Shown here: positions 1,569 through 11,656 of the stretch, in pieces
Position numbering within the stretch: position 1 is the first letter of the stretch
How the letters are laid out: every line of letters begins with the position of its first letter
DNA from: Sideroxydans sp.
GTDB lineage: Bacteria; Pseudomonadota; Gammaproteobacteria; Burkholderiales; Gallionellaceae
Direction: 5' to 3'
Length of the DNA stretch: 64,000 bases
NCBI GenBank assembly: GCA_028707175.1
Contig: JAQTUV010000003.1
Location: 186,001-250,000, forward strand
Notes under the pieces: generated by a model
Databases searched by the model: none
What the model saw: the letters and a program-made list of their open reading frames with translations, nothing else
Told to the model about the DNA's origin: nothing
Made by a program: the position numbers and the translations under genes

Positions 1569-2315
1569 CTATTCCGTGAGAACGTCCTTCAATAATTCTC
1601 GAGCGGGATCCAGTGAAGCAGAGTTAATTGCCTCAAGATTTTGAAATCCCAATTCGGTCAAAATTGCACGGCCTTTAGGGTCCGTATTCATACCGATTAG
1701 TACACTGCGTACTTGATCAATTCGATCCGCCCAAGTTGGCCCCACACAGAAACAGTGGAATGCAGTGCCATCACGGCTTTCTGAAAGTACTTCAAGTTCT
1801 GCTTTGGTTGTCGCCGACAAACCGCGCCAAGTTTCATTGAAAACAAAACCGGCATGAGCATCCCCCTTCAAAACGGCTTGCGCTGCCTTTAGATGCGTTC
1901 CTGTGTAGTGGTAACGTACTCTGGACTCTTCCAGCCCGATCTTTGGCAATAGGGTTCGCCCGAGCGGGTGAACGATCAATTTATCAGTAGCTGAGGCAAT
2001 CACCACCTCGCCCCCCTCGGGTATTCCCCTTTGTTTATGTACTACCAGCAGGGTTTCATCGTACAAATCAGAAGCTTTGGCGACAGGTAAAAATCCCTTA
2101 CGTTCAGCAAACATCAAAGCAGAGTAGGGGTTGGCATAAACTATTTGATAGTTACCATCCAGCACTGCATTGCGCTCTTCGATGAAGGTGTCAGATGGTT
2201 TGAAATTGATGTTCTCGCTAAGCATACGCTGCAAATAACTATTCAATACGAACCAGCCAAGCAAATTCTTCGCTGTGTCATGCGGACAAACGGATAGAAA
2301 TGAACTTGTGCTCAT
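1569..2315 (-). CDS. PhnD-like (phosphate/phosphonate-type) substrate-binding domain protein, no evident signal peptide
   Basis: ERNAVLDGNYQIVYANPYSALMF, LKAAQAVLKGDAHAGFVFNETW pattern of PhnD/SBP-like proteins; N-terminus MSTSSFLSVCPHDTAKN is not signal-like. Confidence 0.65.
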   Translation of the reverse strand: MSTSSFLSVCPHDTAKNLLGWFVLNSYLQRMLSENINFKPSDTFIEERNAVLDGNYQIVYANPYSALMFAERKGFLPVAKASDLYDETLLVVHKQRGIPEGGEVVIASATDKLIVHPLGRTLLPKIGLEESRVRYHYTGTHLKAAQAVLKGDAHAGFVFNETWRGLSATTKAELEVLSESRDGTAFHCFCVGPTWADRIDQVRSVLIGMNTDPKGRAILTELGFQNLEAINSASLDPARELLKDVLTE

Positions 2316-2445
2316 AACGTGGATAACTCCTGGTAAAGGTTGATTTAGTCAGTGGCAGATGGCTATTTTGTTTGCATGAAACAAGGCTAATTTAGGTGAG
2401 TTACTGCCTGGAATGTAGGCCGTACACTTTCCTCAGCGCAATGTT

Positions 2446-2808
2446 CTAAAGCAATTTAGCAAGGCTGTCGGATGCGCGACGAGCATCGAGGAAAATCAGC
2501 CCAAGTTTGGCTGTGGGGCGTGCCACCACCGACAATACAGCGTCCGGTCCGGCATGGGCCATCAGAATGTAGCCGTTCTTGCCTTTGACCATCACTTGTT
2601 CAAGTGCTCCGCACCCAAGTTCGGTTGAGCTTCGATCACCTAAGGTCAGCATGGCTGCATTCATTGCACCAACCCGATCCTCATCCAAATTGGCGGGTAA
2701 TAGGCTGGCAATAATCAATCCGTCTGTAGAGATTACGGCTGATGCAGTGATATCAGCGGAGCTTCCGTTCAATTCACTCAATACAGAACGTATCATTTCT
2801 TCACGCAT
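2446..2808 (-). CDS. Roadblock/LC7 domain protein (MglB-like)
   Basis: 120 aa; ITASAVISTDGLIIASLLPANLDEDRVGAMNAAMLTLGDRSSTELGCG...VMVKGKNGYILMAHAGPDAVLSVVA is a typical Roadblock/LC7 pattern. Confidence 0.88.
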   Translation of the reverse strand: MREEMIRSVLSELNGSSADITASAVISTDGLIIASLLPANLDEDRVGAMNAAMLTLGDRSSTELGCGALEQVMVKGKNGYILMAHAGPDAVLSVVARPTAKLGLIFLDARRASDSLAKLL

Positions 2809-2845
2809 TTCGATAACTCCTCAATAAAATTAAACATGCAAAAAG

Positions 2846-3496
2846 TTAAACTACCTGTGATTCTTTTGAATAGCGCCTGACCAGCCACCAGATAAAATTG
2901 GTAAATCCCTGTTGATTAAAAGTGGGGCTTCCTTTAATTAACAGTACAAATGCTTGTTGCGAAATTTGTATTGGCCAGTATCCAAGCTGGCTATTACCAG
3001 ATGCATCTACAGTAGCCCATCCAGATGATTGAATACGTAAATTATTGCGTACCATCAATTGATGTCGATGATTGATGCTAGCCATTTCTGCAGCAAGAAC
3101 AGAAAGTTCTTCGACAAGTTCGTGGGGGAACCCAAAGTTTGCTAAATAGAAACCTTCCGCATCTGAAAGCAAGGCGCAGCTTTCATCTGACAGCTTTCCG
3201 AGCAATGGCGGAACATCGATTTCCATGTTGAGTTCTGGTGCAACGCTCGGCTCATTTTTCCCCTCAATCCAGCCAACACTTTGCATGCGGTACAAGAGTT
3301 CAAGAGCATTTAAGCGGGGTTCTTTTGGGAAAAGTCTATTGAGCAATTCATCATCCAATAACGGAGATTTCTGTAATCTTAGTAATGCCTCGATTAAATT
3401 TTGAGCAGCATCATCTCTACTTCCCGTGGCGGCATAGTAGGCGCCTGATGGGGTGACGGTTACATACCTACCTGATACTAAAGAGTAATTAGACAT
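2846..3496 (-). CDS. Hypothetical protein; possible winged-helix plus Roadblock-like C-terminal region
   Basis: ORF from MSNYSLV; overlaps the upstream kinase-GTPase stop by 8 nt; CALLSDAEGFYLANFGFPHELVEELSVLAAEMASI resembles the Roadblock pattern of the neighbouring gene. Confidence 0.6.
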   Translation of the reverse strand: MSNYSLVSGRYVTVTPSGAYYAATGSRDDAAQNLIEALLRLQKSPLLDDELLNRLFPKEPRLNALELLYRMQSVGWIEGKNEPSVAPELNMEIDVPPLLGKLSDESCALLSDAEGFYLANFGFPHELVEELSVLAAEMASINHRHQLMVRNNLRIQSSGWATVDASGNSQLGYWPIQISQQAFVLLIKGSPTFNQQGFTNFIWWLVRRYSKESQVV

Positions 3497-4988
3497 TGTA
3501 ATCCTGTACTCCGGGGTCAATTGAATAAAGAAGTGCTTGAACTAGCATGGACATGTCTCGCTTACTCCGAGCATCTATTTCAAATACTGGGGGATTGATT
3601 TTAAATGGGCGCTTTTTATCCAAGAGAGCCCGGTGATAATCTTCTATCGTTGTTGCGCCCCCAGAGTCCATAAAATTCACTCCGATTACCACTTTCGTTT
3701 TTGCGATCAGTTCGCTAAAAACTTGGAGATAAAATTCCAAATCGTCCAAAGGCGATTTGCTTGAATTGTCAATTAATAGCACGAGCCCTAACGCCCCTTT
3801 TTGCAGAATATCCCACATAAAATCAAAACGCTCTTGCCCGGGGGTCCCAAAGAGATGGACGCGTTCAGTTTCATTTAATTTCATTATTCCGTAGTCCATT
3901 GCCACGGTTGTCGCCGCTTTCTTCAAGCGCGTCATATCACTGGCCATCTGGTCTGTTCCAATTACAGATGTGTCACTCAACACGGATATTGCAGTGGTTT
4001 TTCCTGCACCTACTGGGCCACAAAATACTATTTTGTGATTGCGCACAGCCTGTCTCGGCTTATAAGTGAATATTGAAGAAATAGTCACGCCGCTCAAAGT
4101 GACGCTCATCCGCTCAAGAAATTGTCCGACCGTCTGAGGACGAGCCTCTTGCTTGAGCGATAACGCCCAATCGATGGCTTTTAAGAATTCGGGATTGTAT
4201 TTACCTTTGGCAATCAAACTGGCTGGAGGCAATGGGTCAGTTTGGCCTCTCTGTAAAGCATTCAGTCGATTAACTGCATCAGCTGGCGTGCGGCCGGTAA
4301 CACATCGGTATAGCGTAGCTCCTACGCCATATAAATCTGACCATGGCCCCTGTATTCCGTCCGGTGCATATTGTTCTATAGGTGCGTAACCTGGTGTTAA
4401 TACACATTCCCCACTTTGGCTCGTGGAGCCAAACTCTAGTCTTGCCGCACCAAAGTCCAGCAATATGGGCGTGCCATCATTACGCAAATAGATATTGCTA
4501 GGTTTGATATCACGATGTAGATATTTTTTGCTGTGTACGCTACTTAATCCCTCGAGGATAGGAATAAAAATAGCGCGCAACCGATCTTCGCTTAGCGTTT
4601 CTTTATCTGTATTAAGATATTCGCTTAGGCTTCCACCATCCTCGTAATCCATAACGAAGTATGCTGTGCCGTTTGATGTAAAGTATCGCAATACCCTGAT
4701 TATATTGGAATGCTTAAACTGCGCGAGTATACGAACCTCTTCAATGAACGCATTAAGTCCAAATTGGTAGTAATCGACATCCTCTCCTGGCTTCGGCTTA
4801 ACTTGATTTCCTTCTCGCTCAACCAATTCAGAAGGAAAGAATTCTTTGATGGCGACAGGCGTATTGAGGTTGTTATCCCATCCCTTATAGGTAATTCCGA
4901 ACGTTCCTATCCCCAAAACTCGCTCCAGTCGGTATTCCTCAAGAATGAAACCTTCTGGCAGTGAATTGATAGTTGATGCATAACTCAT
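3489..4988 (-). CDS. Serine/threonine protein kinase fused to C-terminal small GTPase domain
   Basis: Kinase: GIGTFGITYKG, VAIKEFFP, HRDIKPSN, LLDFGAA, TPGYAPIEQY. GTPase: GPVGAGKT P-loop, HLFGTPGQERF (G3), VNFMD (G4-like). Confidence 0.93.
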   Translation of the reverse strand: MSYASTINSLPEGFILEEYRLERVLGIGTFGITYKGWDNNLNTPVAIKEFFPSELVEREGNQVKPKPGEDVDYYQFGLNAFIEEVRILAQFKHSNIIRVLRYFTSNGTAYFVMDYEDGGSLSEYLNTDKETLSEDRLRAIFIPILEGLSSVHSKKYLHRDIKPSNIYLRNDGTPILLDFGAARLEFGSTSQSGECVLTPGYAPIEQYAPDGIQGPWSDLYGVGATLYRCVTGRTPADAVNRLNALQRGQTDPLPPASLIAKGKYNPEFLKAIDWALSLKQEARPQTVGQFLERMSVTLSGVTISSIFTYKPRQAVRNHKIVFCGPVGAGKTTAISVLSDTSVIGTDQMASDMTRLKKAATTVAMDYGIMKLNETERVHLFGTPGQERFDFMWDILQKGALGLVLLIDNSSKSPLDDLEFYLQVFSELIAKTKVVIGVNFMDSGGATTIEDYHRALLDKKRPFKINPPVFEIDARSKRDMSMLVQALLYSIDPGVQDYNV

Positions 4989-6205
4989 GACAAGTACCTT
5001 CTCAAATGCCCCATCATTCGGCCCAATAGCTTGCGGTTATTTTGCTCAGTCAACTTGACTGGCTGCTCTATCAATAAGTCTGATTTACGCTTTGCCTCTC
5101 CCATAAGTCCAATCGTATGGGCTGCGCTGAAATACGCAAACACATGGCGTTGAGGGATCGCTAATGCTTCAGCAATACCTTGAAGCGTCATAGGATGCTC
5201 CTCAACGAGCAAAGCGGATATACGCATAGCATCGGGAAGTTCCAGTAGGCGTGTTAAGTTAGGCCAGTGTCGAAGGAAGACTCGATCCTGTAGTTTTATA
5301 CTGGAGGGAAGTTTGCCGCAATATGACCACGCCGATAACTTCCAAAGCAGTGACTCTATTGCTTCACTCGAAGCGTTATCCATCTCTGGAGGAGGAAGAG
5401 TCACTGGCTCTATTTGAAGGCTATCCGTTGGAAATTCCTTCCCGCAGAACCGTTGCAACATATCATCCTTGATGGTGCTCTTTATAGTTTGCTGCTGGGG
5501 TAATAGTAAAAACAGCGGAACACTTTTTAGTCTGATCAGCATTGGTTTTTGCTGGTGCAGGGCTTCCGTTTTTGCCTGTAAAACCGTCCCCAGCAGGCGA
5601 TTATCCATTGAAACAAAGAGACCTGAAACTTGTGCTTGATTTTCAAAATCAATGTCTTCAGCCTCTCCGCATACAGCCTTGAACTCTTCTGTGTGAGTTG
5701 GAAATGCCTTTAATTCCATGGTGATAGACATGTCTAAATCTTGTGCAAGAACATGCACCTTTTGGACTTCAGGTTCAGGCGTGATTGCCAATTCAATTGG
5801 CGAATCATTTACTGCAGCAAGCGTGGGTTGAAGCATCGGGGGGGGGCTAATACGCTGGACTGACTTTTCAGGCTGACTACGTAAGTGGTCTGACACCCGC
5901 TTCATAGTTGCGCAAAATTCGGGGATTTTGATGGGCTTGATCATCACCTCATCGGCGCTTTCAATATTCCCTTCTTTGACAGAAAGGGCAATTGCAAAGC
6001 GTTCTGGATTTTTGCTCCTATATTTTCTCAATAATTCTTGAGCCCCGACCGCATCCCAATCAATAATCACCGCAACAGCCGAATCATCTACGGATAACTG
6101 GCAAACATCTTTTGCTGGCCCCTTCATCACCATAACCAACGTATCTAACATTCGTTGGTTAAAACCAATGAGGTCAATTTTGATGGGTTCGCTATTACCC
6201 ATCAT
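4985..6205 (-). CDS. Hypothetical protein with degenerate receiver-like N-terminus and possible C-terminal winged helix
   Basis: AVIIDWDAVGAQELLRKYRSKNPERFAIALS...ADEVMIKPIKIPEF resembles REC strand 3 to the K-P motif; C-term PMTLQGIAEALAIPQRHVFAYFSAAHTIGLM is HTH-like; 4-nt overlaps with both neighbours. Confidence 0.55.
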   Translation of the reverse strand: MMGNSEPIKIDLIGFNQRMLDTLVMVMKGPAKDVCQLSVDDSAVAVIIDWDAVGAQELLRKYRSKNPERFAIALSVKEGNIESADEVMIKPIKIPEFCATMKRVSDHLRSQPEKSVQRISPPPMLQPTLAAVNDSPIELAITPEPEVQKVHVLAQDLDMSITMELKAFPTHTEEFKAVCGEAEDIDFENQAQVSGLFVSMDNRLLGTVLQAKTEALHQQKPMLIRLKSVPLFLLLPQQQTIKSTIKDDMLQRFCGKEFPTDSLQIEPVTLPPPEMDNASSEAIESLLWKLSAWSYCGKLPSSIKLQDRVFLRHWPNLTRLLELPDAMRISALLVEEHPMTLQGIAEALAIPQRHVFAYFSAAHTIGLMGEAKRKSDLLIEQPVKLTEQNNRKLLGRMMGHLRRYLS

Positions 6206-6894
6206 TGATGCCCCTTCAATCCTTCAAGTACATCATCCCAAAGTCTATTTACCTCGGTATTGGATATGTTCAGCTTGGGGCGAAGAAGTAGGGCGGCTTC
6301 GTAATTTTGCGACCGCCTATATATCTCCAGCAATTCAGTTGTTAGAGCCCAATTGTCTGGCTCATCCGTCAAAGCTTTTTCAAGTAGACACTGGGCAAGT
6401 TCAACTTGGCCGTTTTCAAGATAGTCACGCACCTCACCCAGTACATTAATCTCGTTTTTCTGAACCGCAGCATGGTGCCGGACAATCAAAGTTTCGGCAT
6501 ACGAGGTTCTGGAGACTTCATTCAGGGCGGCCTGACTCAACAGCATAGCTATCTGCTGAGATGAAAGCTTCGTATTACATTTTTCAAGCAACCCCATTCT
6601 CAGGCTTTCACCTTTTTCACCTAATACTTTGAATAAGCTTAATAAAGCCTCATACATTTGCTCCGTTTTCCCGTCGGCGAGTGTTAATGAAACTATTCGA
6701 ATATGCGAAAGCAAATCGAGAGGGTTTCTTGTGATGCGATGCCGTAAATAGCCGAGGTATCGATGGTGCAAATTGGCAGAGGGTAATTGGGGGCAAAGTT
6801 TATTTCCGCTGTCAAAGAACATCGGTTCCCAAAGATCCGTATAAAAATCTTCTGGTTTTAGGTTTTCACTTCGTACGAGCGAATAATTAGTCAT
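6202..6894 (-). CDS. Hypothetical helical/TPR-like repeat protein
   Basis: NGQVELAQCLLEKALTDEPDNWALTTELLEIYRRSQNYEAALLLRP is TPR-like; start chosen at MTNYSLV. Confidence 0.55.
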   Translation of the reverse strand: MTNYSLVRSENLKPEDFYTDLWEPMFFDSGNKLCPQLPSANLHHRYLGYLRHRITRNPLDLLSHIRIVSLTLADGKTEQMYEALLSLFKVLGEKGESLRMGLLEKCNTKLSSQQIAMLLSQAALNEVSRTSYAETLIVRHHAAVQKNEINVLGEVRDYLENGQVELAQCLLEKALTDEPDNWALTTELLEIYRRSQNYEAALLLRPKLNISNTEVNRLWDDVLEGLKGHQ

Positions 6895-9232: not shown

Positions 9233-11656
9233 ATGACTATCCAAAACAACGACCAACCCACCCTCTTCCCCGATGAAGAAGTGAATGTGATTGAAACAGA
9301 AACGCCTGAAACTGTGCCAGTTGCAGCAGAAGGCAATGGCGGTGGCAAACAATTCGCCCCCCTCGCCCCCTTCCCCGAAGGTGATGATGTGCCGATCTCC
9401 ATGTATGCCGAGCGTGCTTATTTGGAATATGCCATCTCCGTCGTCAAAGGCCGCGCCCTGCCCGATGTGTGCGATGGGCAGAAGCCCGTGCAGCGCCGTA
9501 TCTTGTACGCCATGCGTCAGATGGGATTGAGTCACGGCAACAAACACGTGAAGTCCGCCCGTGTCGTGGGTGATGTGCTGGGTAAATATCACCCGCATGG
9601 TGACTCTTCCGCCTATGAAGCGATGGTGCGATTGGCGCAGGATTTCTCGTTGCGTTACCCACTGGTCGATGGGCAAGGCAACTTCGGCACACGCGATGGC
9701 GACAATGCCGCCGCCATGCGCTACACCGAGGCGCGCCTCACGCCGCTGGCCGATTTGTTGCTGTCCGAATTGGATATGGGAACGGTGGATTTCGTGCCGA
9801 ATTACGATGGCGCGTTCCAAGAACCGGCCATGTTGCCGGCACGTTTGCCGATGGTGTTGCTGAACGGCGCATCGGGTATCGCGGTGGGGATGGCGACCGA
9901 GATTCCATCACATAACCTACGCGAAGTGGCTTCTGCTGCGGTGCAATTGGTACGCGATGCGAGCCTGTCTGATGAAGCACTACTCGCCTGCATTCCCGGC
10001 CCAGATTTTCCGGCGGGCGGGCAAATCATCTCCTCTCCGCGCGATCTGCGAGACAGCTATTTGAGCGGACGCGGCTCCATCAAAATGCGCGCGCGTTGGA
10101 ATGTAGAAGAGTTAGCGCGAGGCCAATGGCAGATCGTGGTGTATGAATTGCCGCATGGCGTTTCGACCAAAAAAGTGCTGGAAGAAATCGACGAGCTGAG
10201 CAATCCCAAAGTCCGCGCAAACAAAAAAAGTTTGTCGCCCGAGCAGGTTCAGAACAAACAATTGTTGCTGTCCGTGTTGGATGCGGTGGCGGATGAATCT
10301 GATAAATCACAAGCAGTTAGGTTGGTATTTCAACCTAAATCCTCACGTCAAACGCAAGACGAATTGATGAACGTCTTGCTCACCCACACCAGCTTGGAAT
10401 CCTCCACTTCGCTCAATCTCACCATGATTGGGCTGGATGGCAGGCCGCAACAAAAATCACTGCCGCAGATCATTCGTGAGTGGGTCACATTCCGTTTAGC
10501 CACCGTGCGCCGCCGCTGTGAACATCGCTTGATGCAAGTCAACGACCGCCTGCATATCTTAGAAGGACGCATGGTGGTGTTCTTGAATCTGGACGAAGTC
10601 ATCGCCCTTATTCGTGAATCCGACGATCCCAAGGCCGCATTGATCGCACGCTTTGAATTGTCCGAACGCCAAGCCGAAGACATCTTAGAAATCCGTCTGC
10701 GCCAACTGGCGCGTATGGAAGGCATTCGCATCGAGAAAGAAATCAAGCAACTCGACAAAGAGCGCAAAGACCTCACTCGCTTGTTATCAAAAGAGAGCGC
10801 CTTGCGCGAACAAGTCGCCATTGAGATCGATGCCGACATGCAAACTTTTGGTGATGAACGTCGCACCTTGATTCAAGAAGCGCAACGTGCCGCCCCCGTC
10901 AATACGGTGGTGGATGAGCCTGTTACTGTGCTGATCTCCAAAAAACATTGGGGACGTACGCGCCAAGGTCACGGTCTTGACCTGTCCAACTTACCATTTA
11001 AAGATGGTGATGGATTGCTGGCCAAGTTCGAATGTCGCACCACCGACCATTGCATCGTCATCTGCGATAACGGCCGCGCATGCAGCATTCCCATCGCACA
11101 ATTCCCGTCAGGACGGGGCGACGGCGTACCACTTGCCACTCTTATCGAGCTCGCCAGCGGCGCCAAGATTGCACATGTGATTTGCGGTAAAGCAGATCAA
11201 GCCGTGCTCATCTCCACCTCGGCAGGTTATGGGTTCACTGCCACCTTGGGTGACATGGTGGGCCGCAACAAGGCCGGCAAACAATTCATCAGCGTAGAAA
11301 AAGAAGCCATCCTGCCACCCGTCACCTACACCCCAACGGCACAATCTGTTGTGGCCGCTGCATCAAGCGATGGCCGCTTGTTGGTGTTCCTGTTGAGTGA
11401 GATGAAGCACCTGCAGAGCGGCGGTAAAGGTGTGATTGTGATGGGGCTAGCGGAAGGTGCAGAGCTGATAGTCACAGGCGTGATCAACCAAGCCAGGATC
11501 GAAGTCGCAGGTAAAGTTGGCACACGAGATCACATCGTCAAACTTGCGGGTGAGACATTGCAAAGCTTCTTTGGCAAACGTGCGCGGGGCGGCAAGAGCC
11601 TTCCTGCCAAGTTCAAACCCGAGTCCTTTGTGATGGTGGCAGAGAAAGAAGCGTAA
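9233..11656 (+). CDS. parC: DNA topoisomerase IV subunit A
   Basis: [48 protein letters not shown]; starts directly after parE stop (TAAATG). Confidence 0.96.

Follow-up and report, generated by a model that had tools for sequence, protein, structure and literature searches.

A kinase-fused and extended variant of the Group 3 MglA system in a Sideroxydans genome

The analyzed window is a 64,000-nucleotide stretch of the Sideroxydans sp. genome (GCA_028707175.1, 2.89 Mb in 19 contigs), covering positions 186,001 to 250,000 of contig JAQTUV010000003.1. ORF calls and translations located six genes on the minus strand within positions 1569–6894 of the window, designated g1 to g6. The overlaps are exactly 4 nt between g1 and g2 (6202–6205), 4 nt between g2 and g3 (4985–4988), and 8 nt between g3 and g4 (3489–3496). 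Intergenic gaps of 37 nt and 130 nt separate g4 from g5 and g5 from g6, respectively. The six ORFs and overlaps listed in a preliminary description of this DNA were reproduced exactly in position and length. The same description had found no output gene adjacent to the operon, and this was confirmed: parE/parC lie upstream of g1 on the opposite strand, and holB and tatD lie downstream of g6 in convergent orientation, as read from their translations. The g4 reading frame at 2846–3496 starts with ATG, and the longest ORF starts upstream with TTG at 3520. A near-identical N-terminal peptide, M[TS]NYSLV, is common to g1 and g4 (at 6894 and 3496 of the window). Promoter and terminator scans gave equally good results on shuffled sequence.

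The domains of the six products were analyzed using Pfam searches, alignments, AlphaFold2 models, and Foldseek comparisons. The g1 product (6202–6894, 230 aa) is a TPR-like protein with a weak match below the Pfam cut-off (TPR_16, 8.5e-5). The g3 product (3489–4988, 499 aa) contains a Hanks-type kinase domain at 4137–4934 (Pkinase, residues 19–284, 128 bits, 4.1e-37), followed by GTPase-type matches. The active-site motifs of the kinase are complete in the alignment, including the glycine loop, the VAIK lysine, HRDIKPSN, and DFG. The GTPase domain, assigned to 3504–4040 by alignment motifs and by the Group 3 definition in the relevant sections of PMC4316618, retains GPVGAGKTT, GTPGQER (in LFGTPGQERF), VNFMD, and DAR (in EIDAR). 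The g5 product (2446–2808, 120 aa) is a canonical Roadblock/LC7 protein of the MglB type with a DG pair (Robl_LC7, 55 bits, 6.8e-15). The g6 product (1569–2315, 248 aa) has a PhnD-like binding-protein fold (Phosphonate-bd, 104 bits, 1.2e-29) and appears to be a sensor-like accessory protein. A hydrophobic N-terminus, as expected for the signal peptide of periplasmic PhnD, was not found in g6 or in any of the homologues found, and g6 is therefore probably cytoplasmic.

The Pfam search of the window products gave no family for g2 and g4. The AlphaFold2 model of g4 (2846–3496, 216 aa), built from 33 relatives, reached a mean pLDDT of 92.6 and showed a helical, winged N-terminal part and a Roadblock-like C-terminal fold. 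Its best PDB matches in Foldseek were the Myxococcus and Thermus MglB proteins and other Roadblock proteins (E ~1e-4), and the Roadblock HMM also matched g4 homologues of other genomes. These models and matches identify g4 as a divergent Roadblock protein with a predicted N-terminal winged helix. The model of g2 (4985–6205, 406 aa) had a mean pLDDT of 84.9. Its N-terminal domain (5870–6205) adopted a receiver fold, for which the CpaE receiver was the best PDB match, with CheY and the CikA pseudo-receiver ranking next. The domain is best described as a pseudo-receiver, since in 27 relatives the KP motif and D51 hardly vary, residue 49 is variable (D in 18, N in 8), and there is no N-terminal acidic pair. 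After an HWPNLTR-type motif, the C-terminal segment of g2 (5090–5230) was predicted to form H326-335, H341-348, H352-364, and E368-371. This predicted secondary structure and weak wHTH-type HMM matches among family members support a winged-helix-like C-terminus. A relationship of the middle domain to PATAN/DUF4388 was also considered, and Pfam searches on the 27 members gave it no support. The domain assignments of the preliminary description, namely a receiver-like protein, a kinase-GTPase fusion, a wHTH/Roadblock protein, a Roadblock protein, and a PhnD-like protein, were thus borne out.

In 274 genomes sampled from the class, g4 homologues were detected in 26, the GTPase in 47, and Roadblock domains in 48. 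A set of 28 loci was examined, chosen mostly through g4, so that the presence of g4 in them is by construction. The combination of g2, GTPase, g4, and Roadblock genes was found on one strand in 25 of the 28, which is also the number of loci that retain the GTPase; one of the 25 is L113, where a contig end cuts the locus. The order TPR, g2, GTPase, g4, and Roadblock was nearly constant across these loci from many families of the class, with the TPR gene usually first, which rules out a chance gene cluster. The genes had been read in the preliminary description as one operon, a reading that a lack of joint conservation would contradict; they were found to be conserved together. Optional genes occur after or within the block, with PAS and PhnD-like genes in 14 loci and a protoglobin gene in 6. 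A PhnD-like homologue belongs to the same module in 15 of the 28 loci; the window's module has the PhnD-like gene and lacks the PAS gene. Around the extended modules, no gene was conserved beyond the module itself.

A compact form, consisting of g2, GTPase, and Roadblock genes and often a second short Roadblock gene, is also common. The possibility that g4 corresponds to this short second Roadblock found no support, as a profile comparison gave no useful match. The window's own genome carries a compact Group 3 module on another contig (L166, 6698–8973, G000:C8), with a g2-like protein of 212 aa, a free GTPase, and a Roadblock protein. Ahead of this module lie genes for a PAS histidine kinase and a NarL-type regulator, and behind it one for a CZB zinc-binding protein with a single domain. 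Several other arrangements were observed. Loci L130 and L132–L136 represent a TPR and g4 type without the GTPase, several of them with Roadblock, protoglobin, and a long g2-like protein, and in L132 g4 and TPR form a single ORF. L131 and L123 are extended modules in which the GTPase is absent between g2 and g4, and L131 has a second PhnD-like gene. L190 (4143–5678) encodes a 511-aa chain that joins a g2-like protein to the GTPase, which makes it another type of fusion involving this GTPase.

The GTPase and its neighbours correspond to a known family. According to the sections on Group 3 MglA in PMC4316618 (Wuichet and Sogaard-Andersen, 2014), this group is marked by GTPGQ, a G4 motif often without lysine (NxxD), and DAR. 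It is described there as nearly confined to beta- and gamma-proteobacteria and as neighbouring one or two MglB genes and a protein with receiver-like and winged-helix parts. In g3, the G3 motif is GTPGQ instead of the Group 1 motif TVPGQ, and the G4 (VNFMD) and G5 (EIDAR) motifs follow the NxxD and DAR patterns. The G2 region, AATTVAMDYG, read by eye, has a threonine without an adjacent arginine, a Group 3 trait as opposed to Group 1. The receiver-like and winged-helix partner is represented by g2, whose winged helix was assigned from predicted structure and weak HMM matches, and the MglB neighbours are g5 by Pfam and g4 by fold. In a GTPase tree of the sequences collected in this work, g3 grouped with relatives whose motifs and gene neighbourhoods match its own. 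The window departs from the Group 3 systems described in those sections in that the GTPase is not a single-domain protein, with a kinase at the N-terminal side in g3, and in its added TPR, g4, and PhnD-like (or PAS/protoglobin) genes. Therefore, the operon is known in kind, as a variant of the Group 3 MglA system that is extended and carries a kinase fusion. The GTPase signature and gene neighbourhood rule out the undescribed system for which the preliminary description had considered this operon the best candidate.

The analogy drawn there to MglA/MglB and the conservons was upheld. The mgl locus of Snodgrassella is also assigned to Group 3 in PMC11112851, where mutation of an orphan mglB is tied to altered type IV pilus-dependent spreading. 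The Snodgrassella/Neisseria loci share a Group 3 MglA and coupled MglB with the window and are linked to pilus-dependent motility and gut colonization; they differ in consisting of mglA, two coupled mglB genes, and an orphan mglB, and the parts of PMC11112851 on this locus report no kinase. The Myxococcus xanthus MglA/MglB/RomR/SgmX system likewise combines a GTPase, a Roadblock GAP, a receiver-domain regulator, and a TPR effector. However, its MglA belongs to Group 1, with another catalytic signature and no kinase fusion, and mglA lies distant from the genes of its receiver-domain partners. The Streptomyces conservons (CvnA–D) resemble the window in having a GTPase, a Roadblock protein, and a kinase per operon and in the GTPGQ and DAR motifs. 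They differ in having a separate gene for the kinase, a membrane histidine kinase, and in lacking receiver-like, TPR, and winged-helix-Roadblock proteins among the core four. Neither the CvnA family nor the DUF742 family of CvnC was found by Pfam among the six products. Similarity to anti-phage defence systems was limited to the kinase domain, as general Hanks kinase similarity without a multi-gene match, and this assignment was rejected. The LRRK2/ROCO proteins carry a GTPase and a Ser/Thr-type kinase in one chain, as in g3. They differ in their Roc-COR architecture, in the GTPase family, and in having the kinase C-terminal to the GTPase; the comparison concerns only how such a protein works.

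Fusions with an intact kinase were found in eight loci (the window, L003, L004, L005, L006, L112, L124, and L192), with G396 and L003, which share a 204,854-base contig, counted once as the same genome, and a decayed fusion was found in L206. The fused kinases form one clade with 100/100 support. The fused GTPase domains also fall into one clade (97/96), which includes the duplicated free GTPase of L005. The simplest reading of both sequence trees is that the fusion arose once. The clade is small and scattered over several families, its kinase active site is kept, and the short linker contains a conserved basic stretch. In L005, the second, free-standing GTPase (10466–11023) directly follows the fusion, apparently through local duplication. 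The preliminary description had proposed a GTPase switch with a covalently attached kinase; the fusion is real in the window, but a free-standing GTPase is the rule in relatives. No report of a kinase-MglA fusion was found in the open-access papers searched.

The GTPase motifs are intact or nearly so in six of the eight fusions, all adjoining g4 and Roadblock genes. In the L006 and L192 fusions, the P-loop consensus and GTPGQ are gone and the kinase is intact. Whole-genome searches found neither a Roadblock domain nor g4 in these two genomes, of which that of L192 (G134) has a stated completeness of 98%. Such co-loss among eight fusions has a probability of ~0.036 (1 in 28) if the losses are independent, and the two loci may share an ancestor. 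This pattern suggests that the Roadblock proteins are required for GTP switching and that the kinase by itself is a useful output. L206 represents the opposite case, in which the kinase has decayed and the GTPase G3 motif is lost while the Roadblock protein is kept.

The target of the system was approached through gene neighbourhoods and co-occurrence. The compact modules L168 (4823–15001) and L171 (1–9355) adjoin CheW, MCP, Hpt, and receiver genes of the Pil-Chp type, an adjacency seen only in two sister lineages and for the compact form. Near L168 and L171, and also near L174, lies a gene for a conserved 530-aa protein; the L168 copy has no Pfam match. A strong PilT match was present in 47 of 47 GTPase-positive genomes compared to 232 of 274 overall above the cut-off, with a chance probability of 2e-4 when genome size and kinship are ignored. 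Many of the genomes without PilT are small, and PilT is present in the window's own genome. The compact module of this genome (L166) lies ~2.5 kb upstream of flhA/flhF. In Myxococcus, MglA-GTP promotes pilus formation via the TPR protein SgmX (PMC7519303), which may be a parallel for g1, by analogy only. Type IV pili or polarity are favoured as the output by this indirect evidence.

We propose, with a probability of about one half, that the operon is an extended Group 3 MglA-type switch in which the kinase serves as an attached effector and the likeliest target is the control of type IV pili and surface motility or of polarity. Signals would enter through the pseudo-receiver g2 and through cytoplasmic proteins of a sensor-like character, PhnD-like in the window and of the PAS or protoglobin type in relatives. 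The g5 protein and the winged-helix-Roadblock protein g4 would act on the GTPase domain of g3 as GAP or co-regulators, and the GTP/GDP state would set the activity or the place of the fused kinase. The TPR protein g1 may be an adaptor or effector. A more specific proposal is tentative and somewhat short of an even chance. Here, the two Roadblock proteins would set the nucleotide state of the Ras-like GTPase, which would gate in cis the Hanks-type kinase to which it is attached, and once or twice this arrangement would have decayed to a nucleotide-independent pseudo-GTPase-kinase after all Roadblock proteins were lost.

The direction of signalling could also be reversed. The kinase may be the input, phosphorylating itself, the GTPase, g2, or the Roadblock proteins to reset the MglA switch, with the GTP form as the output. 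Most relatives have a free-standing GTPase without a kinase, whose ancestral output was presumably effector binding, and the trees place the kinase as a later addition. However, L006 and L192 keep the kinase after losing the GTP motifs, which would be odd were the GTPase the output, and we regard this reversal as unlikely. Transcription regulation, with g2 and g4 as DNA-binding outputs, appears more doubtful still. The operon has two predicted winged-helix-like segments (in g2 and g4), and control of transcription through winged helices is suggested for Group 3 in the corresponding section of PMC4316618. Against this, proteins are frequent partners of winged helices, the genes around two of the compact modules suggest a link to pili, and inspection of the operon's own promoter region revealed no operator-like inverted repeat. 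It is quite improbable that the fusion is a mere tether that holds an unrelated kinase at the module, without allosteric coupling. The few scattered genomes with the fusion and the decayed kinase of L206 would fit such a tether, but several families keep the kinase active site together with the short linker and its basic stretch.

With the attached-effector switch as the preferred reading, the operon bears on a little-studied family that is widespread in beta- and gamma-proteobacteria, including pathogens. The g4, TPR, PAS, protoglobin, PhnD-like, and CZB parts provide candidate inputs for it. Since g3 holds the switch and the kinase in one soluble chain, it would allow a direct biochemical readout of kinase activity against nucleotide state and each Roadblock protein. 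The kinase-fused operon is thus a simple bacterial setting in which to ask if a kinase can be gated by a GTPase. If true, the cis-gated kinase would be a stripped-down counterpart, in principle, to the LRRK2-type kinase-GTPases and to Roadblock-scaffolded Rag switching.
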